Positions 24,711-32,380 of a stretch of DNA of 64,000 nt are shown piece by piece. The translations under genes were made by a program, and so were the position numbers. The notes beneath the pieces were generated by a model, which saw only the letters and a program-made list of their open reading frames with translations, was not told where the DNA came from and did not search any database. The DNA comes from Castellaniella defragrans (GTDB lineage: Bacteria > Pseudomonadota > Gammaproteobacteria > Burkholderiales > Burkholderiaceae_B), in contig NZ_JACHIB010000020.1 of the NCBI RefSeq assembly GCF_014203015.1, forward strand, positions 1 to 64,000, in the 5' to 3' direction. Numbering within the stretch: position 1 is the first letter of the stretch; each line of letters begins with the position of its first letter.

Positions 24711-24873
24711 ATGGTCCCGTTCCTCGCAATGGCCCCCGTTCCGTCATGGCACCCCGTCCCGTCATGGCGCCCCGTCCCGTCATGGCACCCCGTTCCGTCA
24801 TGGCACCCGTCCCGTAACGGCGCCGTTCCGGCGACGCATCTTTCCGGCGACGCATCCTTCCGGCGACGCATTC
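24711..24873. repeat. Composite tandem array: six units of about 18 bp and three of 16 bp
   Basis: Between the divergent rpiA and sirtuin genes, six 17-18 bp units of the type ATGGCACCCCGTCCCGTC run from 24711 to about 24816. Three 16-bp units TTCCGGCGACGCATCY then follow at 24826-24841, 24842-24857 and 24858-24873. The last 16-bp unit merges into a dyad-like motif (24862-24880). The array fills nearly the whole spacer, so any promoter of either gene must lie in or beside it. Confidence 0.85.
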
Positions 24874-24880
24874 TGTCGTG
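24862..24880 (+). promoter_or_regulatory. Operator-like motif upstream of the sirtuin gene
   Basis: GGCGACGCATTCTGTCGTG matches the motif before the AAA+ ATPase gene at 15 of 19 positions, including GGCGAC and ATTCTGTCG. The dyad is weaker here (CGAC/GTCG arms only). The left half-site GGCGACGCAT is repeated twice more upstream in the 16-bp array, which may mean repeated binding sites or chance. It lies 50 bp before the sirtuin ATG. Confidence 0.4.
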
Positions 24881-24930
24881 GGCCGCCGCTAGACTGGCTT
24901 TGTGTCCCCACTCGCAAAGGAATCGCAGCA

Positions 24931-25755
24931 ATGCCGCCCACCGAAGCACAATGGAACCGCGCCCTGGACTACCTGCGCGCAGCCCAGGGGCTGCTGATCA
25001 CCGCCGGCGCCGGCATGGGCGTGGATTCGGGCCTGCCGGACTTCCGCGGCAAGGAGGGCCTGTGGAAGGCCTATCCCGCCCTGCGCCAGGCCCGCCTGGA
25101 TTTCAAGCGCATCGCGCAGCCCGAGGCCTTCGACCGCTGGCCCGCGCTGGCCTGGGGCTTCTATGGCCATCGCCTGTCCATGTACCGCCGCGCCGTGCCG
25201 CACGCAGGCTTCGGCATCCTGCTGCGCTGGGCCGAACGCCTGCCCCATGGCGCCTTCGTCTTCACCAGCAACGTCGACGGCCAGTTCCAGCGGGCGGGCT
25301 TCGACCCGGACCGCATCCTGGAATGCCACGGTTCGCTGCACTGGATGCAATGCCACGCCCATTGCCGGTCGCGGATCTGGCCGGCCGACGGCTTCGAGCC
25401 GGATGTCGATCCGCATACCTGCCGCCTGCGCTCCCCGCTCCCGCTTTGTCCCGACTGCGGCGCCCTGGCCCGCCCCAACGTCCTGATGTTCAACGACCTG
25501 GACTGGGAAATGGCACGCATGGTGGCCCAACGCGACCGTCTGAACGCCTGGCTGGAATCCGTCGGCGGCGACCGCCTGGCCGTCATCGAACTGGGCGCGG
25601 GCCAGGCGATCCCGTCGGTGCGCCACTTCAGCCTGCGCACCGGCCACCCCATCCTGCGCATCAACGTCCGCGACAGCGCCATTTCTCCGCGCTGGGGCGT
25701 GGGCCTGGAAGGCACGGCGCTGCAGACGCTGCGATGGCTGGACGCCCGCATCTGA
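24931..25755 (+). CDS. Sir2-family NAD-dependent protein deacylase
   Basis: A 274-residue sirtuin; it would use NAD to remove acyl groups from lysines in cytoplasmic proteins. The NAD loop reads GAGMGVDSGLPDFRG (bacterial subclass with MGVDSG instead of ISAESG). TSNVDGQF matches the conserved ribose-binding segment and ECHGSLHW holds the catalytic His. Zinc ligands are plausible in QCHAHC and LCPDCG. The ATG at 24931 follows AAAGGA; an in-frame upstream extension is repeat-encoded and rejected. The WYL regulator starts 35 bp downstream, so the two are probably one operon. NADase activity, as in defence SIR2 proteins, cannot be excluded. Confidence 0.88.
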   Translation: MPPTEAQWNRALDYLRAAQGLLITAGAGMGVDSGLPDFRGKEGLWKAYPALRQARLDFKRIAQPEAFDRWPALAWGFYGHRLSMYRRAVPHAGFGILLRWAERLPHGAFVFTSNVDGQFQRAGFDPDRILECHGSLHWMQCHAHCRSRIWPADGFEPDVDPHTCRLRSPLPLCPDCGALARPNVLMFNDLDWEMARMVAQRDRLNAWLESVGGDRLAVIELGAGQAIPSVRHFSLRTGHPILRINVRDSAISPRWGVGLEGTALQTLRWLDARI

Positions 25756-25790
25756 TCCATACTGGCGGTTTTACGCGCCCCGCCCCCGAC

Positions 25791-26759
25791 ATGGCCAAAC
25801 GATCCTCGACCCTGGAAACCACCCTGCTGGCACTGGAAATGCTGCGCCGGATTCCACGCGCCCCCCGCTCGATCACCGCCGGCGAACTGCACGCGCAACT
25901 GGTCGCCAGCGGCTTTGAACGCGACCTGCGCACCATCCAGCGGCAGCTGGACATGCTCAGCACGCACCTGGGCATCGAACGCGACGACGGGAGCGCCCCC
26001 TACCGCTACCGGTGGCTGCCGCACGCCAGGCCGCTGGCCATCCCCCACCTGAGCCCGCAGGAATCCCTGCTGCTGAAGCTGGCCGAGGAACACTTGCGCC
26101 CCCTGCTGCCCGCCCACCTGATGAAATCCATGGAAGGTTTCTTCGTCCAGGCGCGGCACAACCTGGAACCCGATGGCAATGCCCGGCTGGAACGCGAATG
26201 GCCGTCCAAGATCCGCACCGTCGCCACCAGCCAGCCGCTGCTGCCGCCGAAAATCGTGCCCGGCGTGCTGGAGACGGTCAGCGAAGCCCTGTACCATAAC
26301 CATTGGCTGCGGCTGGACTACAAGAATGCCGCCGGCCGGCGCACGACGGTCGAAGTCATGCCCCTGGGCCTGGCCCAGCAAGGCCCCCGCCTGTATCTGG
26401 TGTGCCGCTACCGGGGGTTCGACAACGAGCGCAGCCTGGCCCTGCACCGCATCCTGAGCGCCGGGCAGGCCTCCACCATCCCGTTCGACCGGCCCCGGGA
26501 TTTCGACCTGGCACAATACGACGCCGACGGCCGCTTCCGCTTCGGCGAGGGCGCGCTCGTCCGCCTGCGCTTCCGGATCGACCGGCGTACCGGCCATCAT
26601 CTGCGGGAAACGCCGCTCTCCAAGGACCAGACGGTCACCGAGTGCGACGGCGACCGGCTGGAAATCGCCGCCACCGTGGTCGACAGCGCCATGCTGGACC
26701 AGTGGCTGAAGGGCTTCGGCGACGCGGTGGACGGGGTGCAAAAGGAGGCGGTGGCCTGA
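25791..26759 (+). CDS. WYL-domain transcriptional regulator
   Basis: A 322-residue regulator with an N-terminal winged-helix region (about residues 5-70; ITAGELHAQL and RDLRTIQRQLDML look like the recognition helix) and a central WYL domain near residues 165-230 (HWLRLDYKN, then PLGLAQQGPRLYLVCRY). WYL domains bind small ligands or nucleic acid; members control DNA-damage responses (PafBC, DriD) and phage-defence genes (CapW, BrxR). It is probably co-transcribed with the sirtuin and lies 205 bp before the EcsC gene. It is the only DNA-binding regulator in this part of the window and the best candidate to bind the shared dyads. Confidence 0.9.
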   Translation: MAKRSSTLETTLLALEMLRRIPRAPRSITAGELHAQLVASGFERDLRTIQRQLDMLSTHLGIERDDGSAPYRYRWLPHARPLAIPHLSPQESLLLKLAEEHLRPLLPAHLMKSMEGFFVQARHNLEPDGNARLEREWPSKIRTVATSQPLLPPKIVPGVLETVSEALYHNHWLRLDYKNAAGRRTTVEVMPLGLAQQGPRLYLVCRYRGFDNERSLALHRILSAGQASTIPFDRPRDFDLAQYDADGRFRFGEGALVRLRFRIDRRTGHHLRETPLSKDQTVTECDGDRLEIAATVVDSAMLDQWLKGFGDAVDGVQKEAVA

Positions 26760-26881
26760 GCCGCTGCGCCGGCGTGGCCGGGCAGCGCGCGTCGCTGTGG
26801 CTGCAGGCGCGCGTCGCCTCCCCTATCCGGGGGCGCGGGCATGCGCGATGCGACATGCACGGCGCGATTCATAGAATCAGT

Positions 26882-26916
26882 GTGACGACAAAGCCCTGGC
26901 GTCATATTCTGTCGCG
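26882..26916 (+). promoter_or_regulatory. Promoter with operator-like motif upstream of the EcsC gene
   Basis: GTGACG (26882-26887) and TATTCT (26905-26910) are spaced by 17 bp. The -10 lies inside GGCGTCATATTCTGTCGCG (26898-26916), which matches the AAA+ ATPase promoter at 17 of 19 positions, with the same 10-nt distance from TGACG. The dyad arms here are GCGTCA/TGTCGC, one mismatch from perfect. The motif ends 48 bp before the EcsC ATG. Confidence 0.6.
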
Positions 26917-26964
26917 TACCGGTCCGATCATGGCTCCGTTCCCATTGTCTCCAGGAGTTTTCCG

Positions 26965-27774
26965 ATGAACGTCACGCCCTTCTCCCCAGCCGACCTCGAC
27001 GCCCTGCGCCAGGCCCACGCCCTGCTTGAAAACCCGGGCCTGGCCGCGCGCATGACGAACCTGGTCGGCACGCCCATCGAGAAAGTCCTGGACCGGCTGC
27101 CCGAAGGCTGGAGCGCCCAGATCGGCCAGGTCACCCGGCTGGCGCTGAGCAAGGCCGCCGACGCCGCCCTCTTCACGATGGACGACAAGCCCCGCGACCG
27201 CAGCTCGAACTGGTGGCACAAGGTGGGCGCGGCCGCCACCGGCGGCGTGGGCGGCTTCTTCGGCCTGCCCGGCCTGGCGGTGGAACTGCCGATCTCCACC
27301 ACGATCATGATGCGCTCGATCGCCGACATTGCCCGCAGCGAAGGCGAATCGCTGGCCGATCCCGGCACCCGGCTCGCCTGCCTGGAAGTCTTCGCCCTGG
27401 GCGGCAAGAGCGCGGCCGACGACGGCGCGGAAAGCGGCTACTACGTGGTGCGCGCGGCGCTGGCGCGCGCCATCAGCCAGGCCGCGGAATACGCCGCCGG
27501 CAGCGTCGCCGTCGAGAAAGCCGCCCCGCCCGCCCTGATGCGCCTGATCACGATGGTGGCCGAGCGCTTCGGCATCCAGATCACCGAAAAGGCCGCCGCC
27601 CAGGCCATCCCCGCCCTGGGCGCGGCGGGCGGCGCCCTGATCAACACCCTGTTCATCGACCACTTCCAGGACATGGCGCGGGGGCACTTCATCATCCGGC
27701 GGCTCGACCGGCGCTACGGCACGGAGGTGGTGCGGCTGGCGTACGAAGACCTGCACGGGCGGCGCGCGGACTGA
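26965..27774 (+). CDS. EcsC-family membrane-associated protein
   Basis: A 269-residue EcsC-domain protein. The family is named after B. subtilis EcsC, encoded with an ABC exporter, but its activity is unknown. Glycine-rich hydrophobic stretches (AAATGGVGGFFGLPGLAVELP near residues 90-110 and ALGAAGGALINTLF near 215-228) look membrane-interacting. HFQDMARGHFIIRRLDRRYG is the conserved C-terminal signature. CAGGAG lies 8 bp before the ATG. It has its own promoter with the motif shared with the tandem-AAA+ gene. No ABC exporter is adjacent. Confidence 0.88.
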   Translation: MNVTPFSPADLDALRQAHALLENPGLAARMTNLVGTPIEKVLDRLPEGWSAQIGQVTRLALSKAADAALFTMDDKPRDRSSNWWHKVGAAATGGVGGFFGLPGLAVELPISTTIMMRSIADIARSEGESLADPGTRLACLEVFALGGKSAADDGAESGYYVVRAALARAISQAAEYAAGSVAVEKAAPPALMRLITMVAERFGIQITEKAAAQAIPALGAAGGALINTLFIDHFQDMARGHFIIRRLDRRYGTEVVRLAYEDLHGRRAD

Positions 27775-27867
27775 CCCTCCGGCGGGGAACGGTCCGCCGG
27801 CGCGGGTGGAAACGGCCGCACGGCCGCCGAAGGGAATGCGGAAAAAGGGGTATTCAAACTTTTTTTC

Positions 27868-27883
27868 GCAAATTTGCAATAAT
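27868..27883 (+). promoter_or_regulatory. Promoter and palindrome upstream of the Pit gene
   Basis: An AT-rich block precedes the Pit gene. GCAAATTTGC (27868-27877) is a perfect 10-bp palindrome and runs into CAATAAT (27877-27883), a likely -10; TTCAAA about 19 bp upstream is a possible -35. The palindrome would sit in the spacer, a natural operator position. No PHO box is present. Confidence 0.5.
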
Positions 27884-27910
27884 TCCGCGTCTCCCGAACG
27901 TTCCTCCATC

Positions 27911-29386
27911 ATGCTCGACCTATTCTCCGGCTTGCCCCTTTCGGTCGGGCTCAGCCTGGTCCTGGCGCTGGCCCTCGTCCTGGTCTTTGAATTCATCAAC
28001 GGCTTCCACGACACCGCCAATGCCGTCGCCACGGTCATCTACACCAAGGCCATGCCGCCGCACCTGGCGGTGCTCTTCTCGGGCATCTGCAACTTCCTGG
28101 GCGTGCTGCTCGGCGGCGTGGGGGTGGCCTACGCCATCGTCCACCTGCTGCCCGTGGAGCTGCTGCTCAACCTGGACAGCGGGCGCAGCCTGGCCATGGC
28201 GTTCTCCATGCTGGCCGCCGCCATCGTCTGGAACCTCGGCACCTGGTATTTCGGCATCCCCGCGTCCAGCTCGCATACGCTGATCGGCGCGATCCTGGGC
28301 GTGGGCCTGGCCAACGCCCTGCTGACCGGCCTGCCCGTGGGCATCGGCGTGAACTGGGGCAAGGCCATCGACATCGGCCTGTCGCTGATCATCTCGCCCG
28401 TGGCCGGCTTCATCGTCGCGGCGCTGCTGCTGCTCGGCCTGAAGAGGCTGTTCGCCGGCTCGAAGATGCACAAGACGCCCGAGCAGCGCCGCGCCATCGA
28501 CAACAAGAAGCACCCGCCCTTCTGGAACCGGCTGGTGCTGGTGCTGTCGGCGATGTGCGTGAGCTTCGTGCACGGTTCCAACGACGGGCAGAAAGGCATC
28601 GGCCTGATCATGCTGGTGCTCATCGGCATCGTCCCGGCCAAGTTCGTGCTGGATCCGGCCAGCACGCCCTACCAGGTCCAGCGCACCGTCGACGCCGCCG
28701 CCCACCTGGGCGACTTCTACCAGCGCAACGCGGATACGCTGGGCGACTACCTGGCGCTCAAGCGGCCGCTGCGCACCGATCCGCCCCAGACGGCCCACTG
28801 CGATCCCCAGGATACGATGAGCGTCATCCGGGCGGTGCGCCGCAGCCTGGACGGCGTGCGCGTCTATGACGACCTGCCGCCCGACGCGCGCGTGCGCCTG
28901 CGCCGCTACCTGCTCTGCCTGGACGACACCGCCCGCAAGGTGGCCGGCCTGGACGCGCTGTCCCTCAGCGAAAAAGCCGATCTGCGGCGCCTGCGCGCCG
29001 ACCTGACCGCCACGACGGAATACGCGCCGCTGTGGGTGATCGTCGCCGTCGCGCTGGCCCTGGGCGCCGGCACCATGCTGGGCTGGCGCCGCGTGGTACT
29101 GACCGTGGGCGAAAAGATCGGCCGGCAGGGGATGACCTACGCCCAGGGCATGGCCGCCCAGACCACCGCCGTCGTCGCCATCGGCGTGGCCAACATCTTC
29201 AGCCTGCCGGTCTCCACCACCCAGGTGCTGTCCTCGGGCGTGGCCGGCACCATGGTCGCCAACCGCAGCGGCCTGCACAACGGCACCGTGCGCATCATCC
29301 TGCTGGCCTGGCTGCTGACCTTCCCGGCCAGCATGCTGCTGTCGGCGGGGCTGTTCAGCCTGGCGGTGTGGGGGTTGGGGGTGTGA
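27911..29386 (+). CDS. Inorganic phosphate transporter, PiT family
   Basis: A 491-residue membrane symporter for phosphate (E. coli PitA 499 aa). The two inverted PiT signatures are visible: NGFHDTANAVAT near residue 27 and FVHGSNDGQKGIGL near residue 218. About ten hydrophobic segments flank a cytoplasmic loop (roughly residues 245-375) rich in charged residues, as in PitA. The C-terminal half repeats the transporter fold (ANIFSLPVSTTQVLSSGVAG). With phoU 4 kb away this gives a low-affinity, constitutive phosphate route, but the two are not in one operon. Confidence 0.94.
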   Translation: MLDLFSGLPLSVGLSLVLALALVLVFEFINGFHDTANAVATVIYTKAMPPHLAVLFSGICNFLGVLLGGVGVAYAIVHLLPVELLLNLDSGRSLAMAFSMLAAAIVWNLGTWYFGIPASSSHTLIGAILGVGLANALLTGLPVGIGVNWGKAIDIGLSLIISPVAGFIVAALLLLGLKRLFAGSKMHKTPEQRRAIDNKKHPPFWNRLVLVLSAMCVSFVHGSNDGQKGIGLIMLVLIGIVPAKFVLDPASTPYQVQRTVDAAAHLGDFYQRNADTLGDYLALKRPLRTDPPQTAHCDPQDTMSVIRAVRRSLDGVRVYDDLPPDARVRLRRYLLCLDDTARKVAGLDALSLSEKADLRRLRADLTATTEYAPLWVIVAVALALGAGTMLGWRRVVLTVGEKIGRQGMTYAQGMAAQTTAVVAIGVANIFSLPVSTTQVLSSGVAGTMVANRSGLHNGTVRIILLAWLLTFPASMLLSAGLFSLAVWGLGV

Positions 29387-29390
29387 GGGG

Positions 29391-29426
29391 GGCATCGCCG
29401 GTATCCTCGGCATCGCTGGTACCCCC
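29391..29426. repeat. Degenerate 18-bp repeat after the Pit gene
   Basis: GGCATCGCCGGTATCCTC (29391-29408) is followed by GGCATCGCTGGTACCCCC (29409-29426) and a partial third unit GGTATCGC. The array starts 4 bp after the Pit stop codon, as in other arrays of this window. Confidence 0.65.
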
Positions 29427-29461
29427 GGTATCGCACATCATGGCATCCGCTCTCTGGCGGC

Positions 29462-29491
29462 TTGACAGTATCTCAATGGAGATACAGAATC
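29462..29491 (+). promoter_or_regulatory. Toxin-antitoxin promoter with palindromic operator
   Basis: A perfect -35 TTGACA (29462-29467) is followed after 17 bp by CAGAAT (29485-29490). The spacer is a perfect inverted repeat: GTATCTC (29468-29474), loop AATG, GAGATAC (29479-29485). An operator between -35 and -10 is the usual arrangement for RelB/DinJ autorepression, so this is the probable binding site of the antitoxin or antitoxin-toxin complex. It ends 28 bp before the antitoxin ATG. Confidence 0.8.
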
Positions 29492-29513
29492 CATGGAAAG
29501 GGAGGATCGGCTC

Positions 29514-29786
29514 ATGGCCCATTCCACGATGCTGCACGTCCGGGTGGACGAGGAAATCAAGACGCAGGCCAGCGAAGCACTGGCGGCGATGGGGCTGTCC
29601 GTCTCCGACGCGGTACGCATCCTGCTCAAGCGCGTGGTCAACGATCAGGCTTTCCCGCTCGAACTGAAGGTGCCCAACGCGGCCACACGCGCGGCCATGG
29701 AAGAAGCCCGCGCCATCGCACAGTCCCGTGCAGCACGGTTCAGTTCCGCGGACACGCTGATCGATGACCTCGAAAAAGCCAGCTGA
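29514..29786 (+). CDS. dinJ: Antitoxin, RelB/DinJ family
   Basis: A 90-residue antitoxin that neutralises the adjacent toxin and represses the operon. The N-terminal LHVRVDEEIKTQASEALAAMGLSVSDAVRILLKRVV is the ribbon-helix-helix dimer fold that binds DNA; the C-terminal part (about residues 55-90) is the toxin-wrapping tail. I chose the ATG at 29514 because GGGAGG lies 8 bp before it; a start at 29493 would put that site inside the gene. It overlaps the toxin gene by 23 bp. Family assignment is strong; orthology to E. coli DinJ is inferred from the pairing. Confidence 0.9.
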   Translation: MAHSTMLHVRVDEEIKTQASEALAAMGLSVSDAVRILLKRVVNDQAFPLELKVPNAATRAAMEEARAIAQSRAARFSSADTLIDDLEKAS

Positions 29787-30084
29787 CAGCAAGCGGGCCA
29801 GGCCTCCGAGGACGTGCGACCACACCCGGGCTTTTCTCAAGGATTGGGAACGTCTTTCCCACTCGGGCCGCTACGATCTGACACGCCTGAAGGACGCAAT
29901 GCTGCTGCTCATCGCGGACGATGCGCCGCTGGGCCCCGAATGGCGGGACCACCCGCTCAAGGGCGAGTGGGCCGACCACAGGGAATGCCATATTGGCGGC
30001 GATTTCCTGCTGATCTACCGGGCGGATGGCCATGCCGTCATCTTCGTGCGGACCGGCACGCATTCGGAATTGTTTGAAGAATGA
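29764..30084 (+). CDS. yafQ: mRNA-interferase toxin, YafQ family
   Basis: A 106-residue RelE-superfamily toxin that would cut mRNA in the ribosomal A site. DHPLKGEWADHRECHIGGDFLLIYR and RTGTHSELF match the YafQ core; the His, Asp, Arg and final His-x3-F residues correspond to the catalytic set of E. coli YafQ. The N-terminus is about 15 residues longer than usual and Lys/Arg-rich; a later start cannot be excluded, but the overlap with the antitoxin supports 29764. It is convergent with the tandem-AAA+ gene. All catalytic positions seem intact, so it is probably active. Confidence 0.9.
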   Translation: MTSKKPADSKRARPPRTCDHTRAFLKDWERLSHSGRYDLTRLKDAMLLLIADDAPLGPEWRDHPLKGEWADHRECHIGGDFLLIYRADGHAVIFVRTGTHSELFEE

Positions 30085-30159
30085 GGGACGAGGCTTGTCA
30101 AGCGACATCAGGAATCGCCCCCTGATAATTATCGATATCAAACACAAACGACAAGTTCT
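30085..30159. other. Convergent gap between toxin and AAA+ gene
   Basis: Seventy-five AT-rich bases. ATCAGG and CCTGAT form a weak 6-bp stem around AATCGCCC, followed by AATTATCGATATC. This may end transcription from one or both sides but is too short a stem for a confident terminator call. Confidence 0.3.
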
Positions 30160-32307
30160 TCAAACAAACCCAATCCCCCTCTTCCCGGCATCCGGCTTCA
30201 AATCCATCTCCATCCGCAAAGCCCCCAACACCCCCACATGATCCGCAAAGGGCTTGAACCGGTGCTGACGCGCGATGACGGCGAAATCCCCCGGAGCCAG
30301 CATGCGCATTCCATCCAGCACCCGCCAGACGGACTCGCTCGGTTCCAGCAAACCCATCGCCTTGCTGTGCCGCTGATACAAGGCCCGTGCCTGCTCCGGC
30401 CTCAGATAATGAAACCGGACCTTCAGGTCGAACCGGCGCAATGCCGCCTCATCCAGGTTGTCCATCAGATTGGTGGAGGCGATGAAAACCCCGGTGAAGG
30501 ATTCCATTTGCGTCAGCATTTCATTGACCTGGGTGATTTCCCAGGACCGGCTGGCCCCCCGGCGGTCCTGCAGGAAACTGTCGACCTCGTCGATCAGCAG
30601 GATCGCACCGTCCCGCTGGGCGGACTCGAAGGCCTCGGCGATCTGTTTTTCGCTTTGACCCACCCACATGGACAGCAGATCGGACGCGCGGCGTACCAGC
30701 AGCGGCTTGTCCAATTCGCGCGCCAGCCACTGCGCCCAGGCGGTCTTGCCGGTGCCGGGCGGGCCGTACAGGCACAGGCGCGCGGATTCCACACGCGCCA
30801 GCCCCTGGACCAGGGACGGCAGGTCGGCATCCGCGCAGGACAATGCGGGGTCGTAGGTGTCGGGCAGATCGGCGGCTGACGCCCGCAGCAGCGCATCCTG
30901 GCCACAGGCTTTCAATGTGCCGCCGATCAGACGCTCGATGACCGCGCCGGTGTCGGCGTGCGCGGCAGCGCCCGCCGGATCGGATTGCGCCAGATGCACG
31001 ACATCAACAGCTCGAGTCAGCAAAGCCGGCGGCAACTGCTCGATGGCGGACAGGCGTGCCTTGGCCCGGGATGTCAAAAAATCCCCAACGGCGGATTCGA
31101 TCAGTTCCGCCCGCTGCCGGCGGGCCGGCACGGGGATTTCGATGACCAGATCGAAGCGGCGCAGGTAGGCCGGATCGATGCAGGCCACCGAATTGCTGAT
31201 CCAGAGGGTCGGGACGGGATTTTCCTCCAGCAGGCGATTGATCCAGGCCTTGCTGATCTGCATATGGGCACTGCCACGGGACACCAGGAATCGGCCCGCC
31301 CCCGCAAACACGTCTTCGGCTTCGTCGAACACCAGCACAGGCCGGGGGCTGCGTGCGAATACGCACTGTGCGGTCCGGTAGGCGCGCAGACGCTTGTCGC
31401 CGCCGATGGCGTCACCGTCCTCGTCCTCGATGCAGACCTCGAAAGGCGATGCGTCCAGCATCTGGGCCAGCAGGCGGGACAACTGGGTCTTGCCGGTGCC
31501 CGGGCGGCCATGCAGCAAGACATTCACGCCGGGACGTCGGTGCGCCAGGGCCTGGCGCAGATAGGGAATCAGGGTGTCCAGCCAGGGCTGCACGTGAACA
31601 TAGTCGTTCAACGACAGTTCCGGTGCGGGCGGCATGGATACGACACCTTCCAGCAACTCGACAGGTTCCGCATCGCGCGAGATCAGCGTGGCGGCAAACT
31701 GATCCGAGACGAACGAGAAAGAACTTTTATCGTATTTGGAGCCCAGCGACCAGGAGACGGACAAGAGGCCGCTGCGGACCAGGCGTCCTTTGGACGACAG
31801 CACGGCCTGGATATCGGCCGGCGCGTGCTCCAGCAAGGAGCCCAGGACACGATACATGCGGCTCGGACTCAGGGCATTGCCCAGCAATTCCATGGTTTCG
31901 CCCAGCAGCGAGTTATTGGCCAGCAATGCCGTGAATTCCAGGATGGTCCGCTCGGCCGCGGTCAGCCCCATCAAGGGCGCCAGGCGATCCAGGTTGCGAC
32001 GCAGAGGACTGTCGTCCTCGTCCTGCTCGGCCTGTTCTTGCTCAGCCGCCTCATGCTGTTCGCGCAGCAACCGCAAGACGGTCTTGGGGTCGAAGTCCTC
32101 TTCGTCCATATCGACCCAGTCATCCAGGCCCAGAGCACGCGCGATGTCATCGTCATAAAGGCGGTCCTTGTCGATGAATTTGCGATGGCCCTGCAAGGGC
32201 ACCAGGATGCGCAGCATCCAGAGGTGCGTCTGACGATCCAGGGAACGCTCCGGACGGGCGCTCCCGATCTTGATCCGGCTTTTTTTGGGGCTGGCGATAC
32301 GCGACAT
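30160..32307 (-). CDS. Orphan tandem-AAA+ ATPase
   Basis: A 715-residue protein with two AAA+ modules. An N-terminal region of about 230 residues, rich in acidic and Gln/Glu residues near 85-100, has no domain I know. Module 1 has Walker A GRPGTGKT (267-274) and Walker B VLVFDEAED (324-332); module 2 has GPPGTGKT (515-522) and LLIDEVDS (570-577). Both have LRRFDL as likely Arg-finger region. The second module resembles FtsH/Cdc48-type unfoldases, but no protease is fused or nearby. AGGAG sits 6 bp before the ATG, inside a hairpin. The promoter shares its motif with the EcsC gene. Composition is less GC-rich than the core genes around it. Confidence 0.85.
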   Translation of the reverse strand: MSRIASPKKSRIKIGSARPERSLDRQTHLWMLRILVPLQGHRKFIDKDRLYDDDIARALGLDDWVDMDEEDFDPKTVLRLLREQHEAAEQEQAEQDEDDSPLRRNLDRLAPLMGLTAAERTILEFTALLANNSLLGETMELLGNALSPSRMYRVLGSLLEHAPADIQAVLSSKGRLVRSGLLSVSWSLGSKYDKSSFSFVSDQFAATLISRDAEPVELLEGVVSMPPAPELSLNDYVHVQPWLDTLIPYLRQALAHRRPGVNVLLHGRPGTGKTQLSRLLAQMLDASPFEVCIEDEDGDAIGGDKRLRAYRTAQCVFARSPRPVLVFDEAEDVFAGAGRFLVSRGSAHMQISKAWINRLLEENPVPTLWISNSVACIDPAYLRRFDLVIEIPVPARRQRAELIESAVGDFLTSRAKARLSAIEQLPPALLTRAVDVVHLAQSDPAGAAAHADTGAVIERLIGGTLKACGQDALLRASAADLPDTYDPALSCADADLPSLVQGLARVESARLCLYGPPGTGKTAWAQWLARELDKPLLVRRASDLLSMWVGQSEKQIAEAFESAQRDGAILLIDEVDSFLQDRRGASRSWEITQVNEMLTQMESFTGVFIASTNLMDNLDEAALRRFDLKVRFHYLRPEQARALYQRHSKAMGLLEPSESVWRVLDGMRMLAPGDFAVIARQHRFKPFADHVGVLGALRMEMDLKPDAGKRGIGFV

Positions 32308-32309
32308 GA

Positions 32310-32330
32310 AAAGCTCCTGTGATGAGCTTT
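32310..32330 (-). promoter_or_regulatory. Hairpin enclosing the AAA+ gene ribosome site
   Basis: AAAGCTC (32310-32316) and GAGCTTT (32324-32330) are perfect inverted repeats with a 7-nt loop. The Shine-Dalgarno AGGAG (minus strand, 32314-32318) lies in the stem and loop, so the folded mRNA would partly hide it. It could equally be a protein-binding dyad in DNA. Confidence 0.55.
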
Positions 32331-32345
32331 CATTGTCCGCATGCG

Positions 32346-32380
32346 GGCGACAGAATATGTCGCCATCAGAGGGCCGTCAG
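32346..32380 (-). promoter_or_regulatory. Promoter with perfect dyad upstream of the AAA+ gene
   Basis: On the minus strand CTGACG (32375-32380) and TATTCT (32352-32357) are 17 bp apart. The -10 is inside GGCGACA-TATTC-TGTCGCC (32346-32364), a perfect 7-bp inverted repeat with 5-nt centre. The same layout, TGACG-N10-GGCG, occurs before the EcsC gene. It lies between the potI stop (32385) and the AAA+ start; no T-tract follows, so a potI terminator is less likely than an operator. Confidence 0.65.

Follow-up and report, generated by a model that had tools for sequence, protein, structure and literature searches.

A 64,000-nucleotide stretch of DNA from Castellaniella defragrans (the window) carries a gene for a WYL-domain regulator and, before this and other genes, copies of a short palindrome that may be its binding site. 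Activators with WYL domains and WYL regulators linked to defence are already known, and what is said of them here follows excerpts of the papers cited by PMC number. DriD binds ATACGAC(X)7GTCGTAT as a homodimer, its site lying over a poor -35 at a constant distance from a weak -10, and activates once its WYL domains are occupied by single-stranded DNA (ssDNA); among its promoters is ACGACCGTTTCTGTCGC-AATGCGCG-GACAAT (PMC12340889). PafBC is a WYL activator that gives the housekeeping RNA polymerase a promoter class of its own (PMC11804915). The palindromes of CapW, 19-24 bp long, overlap the -10 and serve repression (PMC9122588), as does the binding of BrxR to inverted repeats of 11 bp set 5 bp apart (PMC9122601). 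A partner to be met with below, the RNase H-like DUF2779/COG2251 group, has been placed among presumed 3'-5' exonucleases (PMC3985635).

The window is C20:1-64000, part of a 102-kb contig in a genome of 3,942,929 bases and 45 contigs. Its genes of interest run in the order SIR2-family deacylase (sirtuin), WYL+WCX regulator, EcsC-family protein, phosphate transporter, RelB/YafQ toxin-antitoxin pair and tandem AAA+ ATPase. A first-pass annotation had proposed that the WYL protein controls the sirtuin, EcsC and AAA+ genes through a shared dyad. The rarity of the motif, its enrichment at WYL loci and the co-occurrence of genes support that proposal, and from them we infer the binding. With a probability of about 0.72 the WYL protein is a DriD-like activator that serves a small dedicated regulon through the dyad.

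A repeated site on one contig

That a repeated site ties together a few neighbouring genes is confirmed. The sequences and coordinates reported earlier, the distance of ten bases to an upstream TGACG, and the agreement at 17 of 19 positions between the EcsC and AAA+ sites and at 15 of 19 for the sirtuin site were all as described when rechecked. At up to three mismatches an 18-letter form, GGCGWCATATTCTGTCGC, has four matches in the window against 0.11 expected, a count reached by none of 100 shuffles (two of the four being both strands of the AAA+ site). At the same tolerance the 19-mer is found at only two places in the whole genome, before the AAA+ and EcsC genes, and is not spread over many unrelated promoters. 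The shorter GGCGACA-N5-TGTCGCC, again at up to three mismatches, gives nine window matches with 9.95 expected, not above chance; the significance of the motif lies in the genome-wide count of the full 19-mer and in the loci of other genomes.

A position weight matrix (PWM) trained on 56 sites with one target gene each, all from outside the genus, was run over contig C20. Highest was a site at C20:75683 (29.3), followed by those before the AAA+, EcsC and sirtuin genes (Table 1), with the next distinct site at 12.5. Among 20 Markov backgrounds the best score was 22.0 and the second best 17.7, and the sirtuin site, fourth on the contig, beats the best score of 19 of the 20. The earlier remark that no further copy was seen fails outside the window, C20:75683 being another perfect dyad on the same contig. 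A composite pattern of dyad core plus -10 matches 13 times genome-wide (eight for the reversed control). Four of the 13 are intergenic, and those scoring above 20 are the sirtuin, AAA+ and C20:75683 sites; the pattern is blind to the EcsC site, whose left arm has a mismatch. Among 16 one-mismatch dyads listed for the genome eight were inspected: that of EcsC is intergenic and seven are inside called genes.

Simpler origins for the motif were set aside: chance, by the 19-mer count, the WYL-locus enrichment given next and the weight-matrix ranking; and a generic form of -10, by the genome-wide scans for the 19-mer and the composite pattern. The 18-mer at up to two mismatches also turned up in 9 of 41 genomes, that of C. 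defragrans included. None of seven window proteins is present in the 3-kb stretches from the other eight genomes, and their matches therefore look like chance.

The site at WYL loci of relatives

Loci were gathered by searching genome contigs with an alignment of WYL proteins only. The best 80 of 204 relatives were kept (1.285 Mb in all), several of the stretches ending at contig ends and some being short; the motif played no part in choosing them. Promoter reading at relatives' loci yielded the consensus TGCGACA-N5-TGTCGCA. Its core, GCGACA-N5-TGTCGC, is present without mismatch at 35 intergenic positions and one inside a gene, and with one mismatch at 56 intergenic positions and five inside genes, intergenic sites being found in 57 of the 80 loci. 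By comparison, 40 control palindromes with permuted arms gave two perfect intergenic sites altogether and 0-3 one-mismatch intergenic sites each. As the earlier proposal had implied, the sites concentrate at loci fetched by the WYL protein alone, with the scrambled controls near-empty.

In the wider set of 98 loci scanned there are 110 intergenic sites, 98 of them with a called gene start at most 300 bp away. The site-gene pairs, by a crude clustering of target genes, comprise 36 AAA+, 14 DUF2779, 10 of an FtsZ-like cluster, four EcsC, four SIR2 and 51 unclustered; genes were called by a simple codon-usage script, not a standard gene finder, which leaves some uncertainty in gene starts and in small genes. 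Three of the 80 WYL loci (L158, L212 and L220) are the same records as earlier family loci and were dropped as duplicates from the site-gene alignment and pair counts.

Promoter geometry and the WYL protein

An alignment of 36 AAA+-upstream sites by their dyads shows conserved A27 (81%), A30 (78%) and T31 (72%), i.e. a -10 from +26. Offsets 25-27 hold a -10-like hexamer in 39 of the 58 sites with one target, against a mean of 2.5 and a maximum of 7 for shifted control triplets. The predicted -10 begins 9-10 bp downstream of the dyad, +26/+27 from its first base. Upstream of the dyad, conservation above the threshold of information used is confined to the adjacent T, and no -35 peak is seen there in the one-target alignment. 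Because the conserved hexamer lies downstream, it is most likely the -35 and not the -10 that the dyad covers. The first-pass annotation had a perfect dyad covering the -10 of the AAA+ promoter; the dyad is indeed perfect, the covering is not borne out. The upstream TGACG, though spaced as written, is not conserved across oriented sites and was rejected as part of the motif.

The CGAC-N7-GTCG spacing in the consensus of 98 oriented sites fits the published DriD consensus, and the GTCGC-N8-GACAAT of a DriD promoter (PMC12340889) may be set beside GTCGC-N9-GACAAT before the AAA+ gene. The profile of the WYL protein matches five sequences of the PDB at E 0.01 (best 2.7e-6), of which 7tzv, 9cu3, 9pfq and 8tp8 are DriD by title and the fifth is 7u02. 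Its AlphaFold2 (AF2) model, with a predicted local distance difference test (pLDDT) of 85 and a predicted template modelling score (pTM) of 0.52, aligns over residues ~7-320 to DriD chains and has the order winged helix-turn-helix (wHTH), WYL, WCX. Foldseek puts DriD first (7.5e-14), then PafBC (1.3e-11) and BrxR/CapW (3.7e-7 to 2.7e-5), with low TM-scores.

Table 1. Genes, DriD-type sites and predicted -10 elements of the window (aa, amino acids; offsets counted from the first base of the dyad)
Feature	Position	Strand	Remarks
Weak DriD-type site before sirtuin gene, GGCGACGCATTCTGTCGTG	24862..24880	+	PWM 20.4; partly in local repeat
Predicted -10 TAGACT, sirtuin-WYL promoter	24890..24895	+	Offset 27
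SIR2-family deacylase gene, 274 aa	24931..25755	+	Pfam SIR2 6.9e-18
wHTH-WYL-WCX regulator gene, 322 aa, proposed DriD-like activator	25791..26759	+	Pfam WYL 3.3e-11, WCX 2e-5
DriD-type site before EcsC gene, GGCGTCATATTCTGTCGCG	26898..26916	+	PWM 23.9, above all 20 Markov backgrounds
Predicted -10 GATCAT, EcsC promoter	26926..26931	+	Offset 27
EcsC-family protein gene, 269 aa	26965..27774	+	Pfam EcsC 3e-29; weak PADLOC PDC-S29 1.3e-8
Tandem AAA+ ATPase gene, 715 aa	30160..32307	-	Pfam AAA 3.2e-44, two stretches
Predicted -10 GACAAT, AAA+ promoter	32332..32337	-	Offset 26
DriD-type site before AAA+ gene, perfect GGCGACA-N5-TGTCGCC dyad	32346..32364	-	PWM 27.6; among the 36 aligned AAA+-upstream sites

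The AAA+ ATPase and its partner DUF2779

Two sets of genomes, 151 of the family and 399 of the order, served for comparison. In the order the AAA+ gene is present in 36 genomes and the WYL gene in 31, with 19 having both where 2.8 are expected (Fisher 5e-15); in the family WYL matches are found in 22 genomes, AAA+ in 8 and EcsC in 44, WYL and AAA+ sharing six (1.2 expected, p 1e-4) and AAA+ and EcsC three (2.3 expected), all these statistics ignoring kinship among genomes. AAA+ co-occurs with WYL; EcsC does so weakly (see below). The AAA+ gene adjoins WYL in genomes G005 and G109 and is within 1.2 kb of it in G108.

The dyad itself tracks the regulator. At up to two mismatches it precedes 16 of 23 AAA+ genes in WYL-bearing genomes vs 2 of 17 in genomes without WYL (Fisher 3e-4), and at up to one mismatch 11 of 23 vs 1 of 17 (Fisher 4e-3). 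The four AAA+ genes with a site and no nearby WYL gene are all in genomes with WYL elsewhere, an arrangement that the split AAA+ and WYL genes of the window resemble. Among the 26 AAA+ homologues of at least 37% identity, 11 have a site at up to one mismatch, 12 a WYL or DUF2779 neighbour and 16 either; L239 and L250, without a called AAA gene, were dropped from these tallies. Many of loci L238-L255 hold a second class of tandem AAA+ protein, ~33-37% identical to that of the window, with longer frames and no site or WYL gene nearby, possibly a housekeeping one.

The AF2 model of the AAA+ protein (pLDDT 86) has its best PDB matches in Rix7/p97/Cdc48. IetA of the IetAS defence system was considered as an identity and rejected: PADLOC and NCBIfam recognise it only within the AAA core, the IteA_antiphage model of NCBIfam scoring 122.3 bits vs a cut-off of 510. 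Between the phosphate transporter and AAA+ genes of the window stands the RelB/DinJ-YafQ type II toxin-antitoxin pair (29493-30084).

By tblastn over the 80 WYL loci the AAA+ gene is found in 49 and a DUF2779 gene also in 49, both in 27 and neither in 9, so that 71 of the fetched stretches have one or both. As a rule the dyad is followed by AAA+, DUF2779 and WYL in this order, and the gap between DUF2779 and WYL is usually 0-11 bp. The DUF2779 protein of relatives has, besides its DUF2779 domain, a weak Cas4-like N-terminal match. A DUF2779 gene was searched for in the genome of C. defragrans and not found.

Other neighbours of WYL in the 80 loci are GmrSD, a 5'-nucleotidase (PADLOC PDC-S08, E 8.8e-135), FtsZ-like proteins, an SNF2-helicase module with weak ZacB/ZacC similarity, and single genes for ADP-ribosylglycohydrolase, PP2C, cREC and macro proteins. 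The helicase module, three genes long (unknown, ZacB-like, SNF2 helicase), is behind or near WYL in L144, L178, L181, L194, L199, L215 and L220, five of these seven records being Erwinia, Pantoea or Rahnella. FtsZ/tubulin-like proteins are near WYL in L159, L161, L185, L192 and others, and several of them begin, by eye, with a Tat-like M(D/K)RRxFL signal, which is odd for a cytoplasmic GTPase.

Sirtuin, EcsC and a proposed fourth target

SIR2 is found in 8 of the 80 WYL loci. Relatives of the sirtuin adjoin WYL in L075 and L078, and WYL adjoins SIR2 in genomes G153 and G011. The region upstream of the sirtuin gene in the window is repetitive: by eye, positions 24740-24880 contain several CCCGTyCCGTCATGGCrCC repeats and then three copies resembling GGCGACGCATCyTTCC. 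The gene upstream of them is presumably rpiA, and the sirtuin site emerges from the last of the three copies.

Among the 31 EcsC places inspected, out of 45, those with a site all belong to this genus, and control of EcsC looks genus-specific. WYL adjoins EcsC in G003 and is within 1.2 kb of it in G004, and the WYL-near EcsC genes of L076 and L077 have dyads as well. In C. denitrificans the EcsC gene beside WYL has a site and that beside the phosphate transporter has none at up to two mismatches. Behind EcsC in the C. denitrificans loci L076/L212 there is a glycine-rich protein related to WYL-near genes in Enterobacter and Paraburkholderia (L187, L209), accompanied by two proteins, one of 485 aa and one with a zinc ribbon, in which Pfam recognises nothing further.

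The fourth site, C20:75683, is outside the window, 43 kb away, and is the contig's strongest. On the minus strand it faces two reading frames, a small one encoding a zinc ribbon and one for a short coiled-coil protein that has homologues behind EcsC in C. denitrificans and C. caeni. A 124-aa protein accompanies these two behind the site (L122:10820-11683 on C20).

The idea of a closed system of deacylase, EcsC protein and AAA+ machine has to be given up: the widespread partners of WYL are AAA+ and DUF2779, the sirtuin is occasional, EcsC with a site was seen only in the genus, and a fourth predicted target lies outside the window.

Proposed model and its alternatives

From site statistics, synteny, conserved promoter geometry and structural similarity we infer the following course of binding, activation and function. 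A homodimer of the WYL protein would bind the 19-bp dyad, whose core is CGAC-N7-GTCG, at promoters lacking a recognisable -35. There the dyad would occupy the -35 position, with a GATAAT-like -10 following 9-10 bp further down, and the dimer would recruit sigma-70 RNA polymerase once its WYL domain carries a ligand, most likely ssDNA from damage or phage infection. Its local targets would be the sirtuin-WYL pair (a positive feedback), EcsC, the AAA+ ATPase and the fourth operon. In Beta- and Gammaproteobacteria the same regulator and site would drive operons of AAA+ and DUF2779 (Cas4-like plus 3'-5' exonuclease-like) that end in WYL and may take swappable accessory genes. Upkeep of genome integrity or defence against phages is the most likely role of the regulon. 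A broader picture is tentative, and we rate it a little short of even odds: a widespread ssDNA-gated DriD-type regulon with positive feedback on a p97-like AAA+/Cas4-exonuclease (DUF2779) operon for phage defence or genome protection, with additions that vary by lineage: sirtuin and ADP-ribose enzymes in some, GmrSD or FtsZ-like proteins in others, an EcsC membrane module in Castellaniella.

Various observations weigh against the DriD-like model. The bare core dyad at up to two mismatches is not enriched in the genome of C. defragrans (224 matches vs 295 for the reversed pattern), and perfect dyads in the 151 family genomes number ~80 vs ~70 reversed by hand sums. The 12 genomes with such a WYL gene have 13 perfect dyads vs 14 reversed ones (10 of the 14 in one genome), and four of the 12 have no perfect dyad at all. 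Seven of the 13 were scored inside frames by a rough gene caller, among them the sirtuin site of L155, which the larger locus puts in a promoter. Of the 80 WYL loci, 23, some of them short stretches, have no intergenic site at up to one mismatch. As to targets, the -10 elements of EcsC and the sirtuin are at offset 27, not 26; the 14 AAA+ homologues below 37% identity have one site and two WYL/DUF2779 neighbours between them; a dyad at up to one mismatch is upstream of only 3 of 30 EcsC genes plus that of L076, all in the genus; WYL and EcsC co-occur weakly (12 vs 6.4 expected, p 0.006), EcsC being mostly independent of WYL; and 8 of 14 members of the SIR2 cluster have no good site by the weight matrix. 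Two sites stand in genomes where no WYL match reaches the cut-offs used: that of one of the three EcsC genes, in G001 of the same genus, and a perfect AAA+ dyad in G341, where the contig ends behind DUF2779. The likeness to DriD is remote, with 21-24% identity, a Foldseek TM of ~0.3 to full-length DriD and a root-mean-square deviation of 17-21 A, and VIA-align Z values are tied for DriD, BrxR, CapW and PafBC.

As the bare dyad is not enriched genome-wide, the signal is local to WYL loci. Sixteen perfect dyads of the family were placed in loci L124-L138. Ten are inside called genes and six between genes (the second site of L124, and those of L131, L132, L133, L137 and L138), L131-L133 all being in G050, a genome with matches to both WYL and AAA+.

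Is the sirtuin a target at all? Its site, taken alone, is weakened by its left arm being one of three ~16-bp local repeats at 24830-24880 (by eye). It is conceivable, if rather unlikely, that the true targets are AAA+ and EcsC only and that the site before the sirtuin gene owes its existence to the GGCGACGCATCyTTCC repeat: the arms have two mismatches, and dyads at that tolerance are, from the count just given, common genome-wide. Yet the right arm and the -10 fit the model, the rank of fourth on the contig comes from a matrix built without the genus, and the sirtuin promoters of L078, L086, L155, L164 and L171 score 25.7-31.5 (L155 and L164 being themselves part of the training set).

Does the WYL protein activate or repress? 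A repressor of the CapW/BrxR type, blocking RNA polymerase at the dyad until a phage or damage signal arrives, has precedent in the CapW palindromes over the -10 and the 5-bp spacer of the BrxR repeats (PMC9122588, PMC9122601). A passable -10, TATTCT, is present within the AAA+ and EcsC dyads of the window, defence models recognise some of the neighbours, and a repressor could also sit on a -35. The better conserved -10-like hexamer is nevertheless the one 9-10 bp downstream, with no -35 peak: a TAnnnT-like hexamer is inside the dyad (offset 6) at 8 of 36 AAA+ sites vs 23 of 36 at offset 26. Since half-site spacing, promoter layout and the nearest solved structures all fit DriD, we favour an activator and hold a repressor to be unlikely. 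That the dyad belongs to another regulator, the WYL gene being linked for other reasons, is very improbable: the G001 and G341 sites and the indirect case for binding would allow it, yet the dyad is greatly enriched in loci fetched by WYL alone, AAA+ and/or DUF2779 accompany WYL in most of these, the AAA+ dyad tracks the presence of WYL, and the half-sites match DriD.

Meaning, and comparison with known systems

In the open-access literature searched we found no description of the AAA+/DUF2779/WYL operon or of this promoter signature. The signature is searchable and predicts genes switched on by a WYL regulator; with it DriD-type damage sensing becomes linked to operons of defence type. It also allows activation and repression by the WYL factors of such loci to be told apart directly, and singles out an uncharacterised AAA+/DUF2779 operon as worth phage testing.

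Against the systems with which this text opened, the DUF2779/COG2251 exonucleases with a Cas4-like domain resemble the partner gene of relatives in its DUF2779 domain and weak Cas4-like match, and differ from the present case in that C. defragrans was not found to have that gene. The ARG/NAD-ADP-ribose conflict systems (PMC9503650), whose regulators are of the WYL or Nudix kind, share a WYL regulator with ADP-ribose enzymes, phosphatases and nucleases as variable partners, and ADP-ribosylglycohydrolase, macro and sirtuin genes are seen singly behind sites here; section 3.8 of that paper gives no description of an AAA+/DUF2779 core and takes the regulation to be negative. PafBC, of mycobacterial sigma adaptation, is alike in being a WYL activator and the next Foldseek match after DriD, and unlike in being a heterodimer that needs RNA polymerase to bind its promoter DNA. 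CapW and BrxR have the wHTH-WYL-WCX fold, a palindromic site (for BrxR with the same 5-bp spacer) and some defence-type neighbours in common with this locus; they differ as repressors, in coming later in Foldseek and in the predicted position of the site relative to the -10 (the CapW operator overlaps the -10 and that of BrxR is just downstream of the promoter), where the conserved hexamer downstream of the dyad has to be set against the TATTCT within the window dyads. DriD of Caulobacter crescentus is nearest, in its CGAC-N7-GTCG site over a poor -35, its domain order and its place at the head of the Foldseek matches, even at ~22% identity and with targets of its own in didA, bapE, recJ and dnaG.

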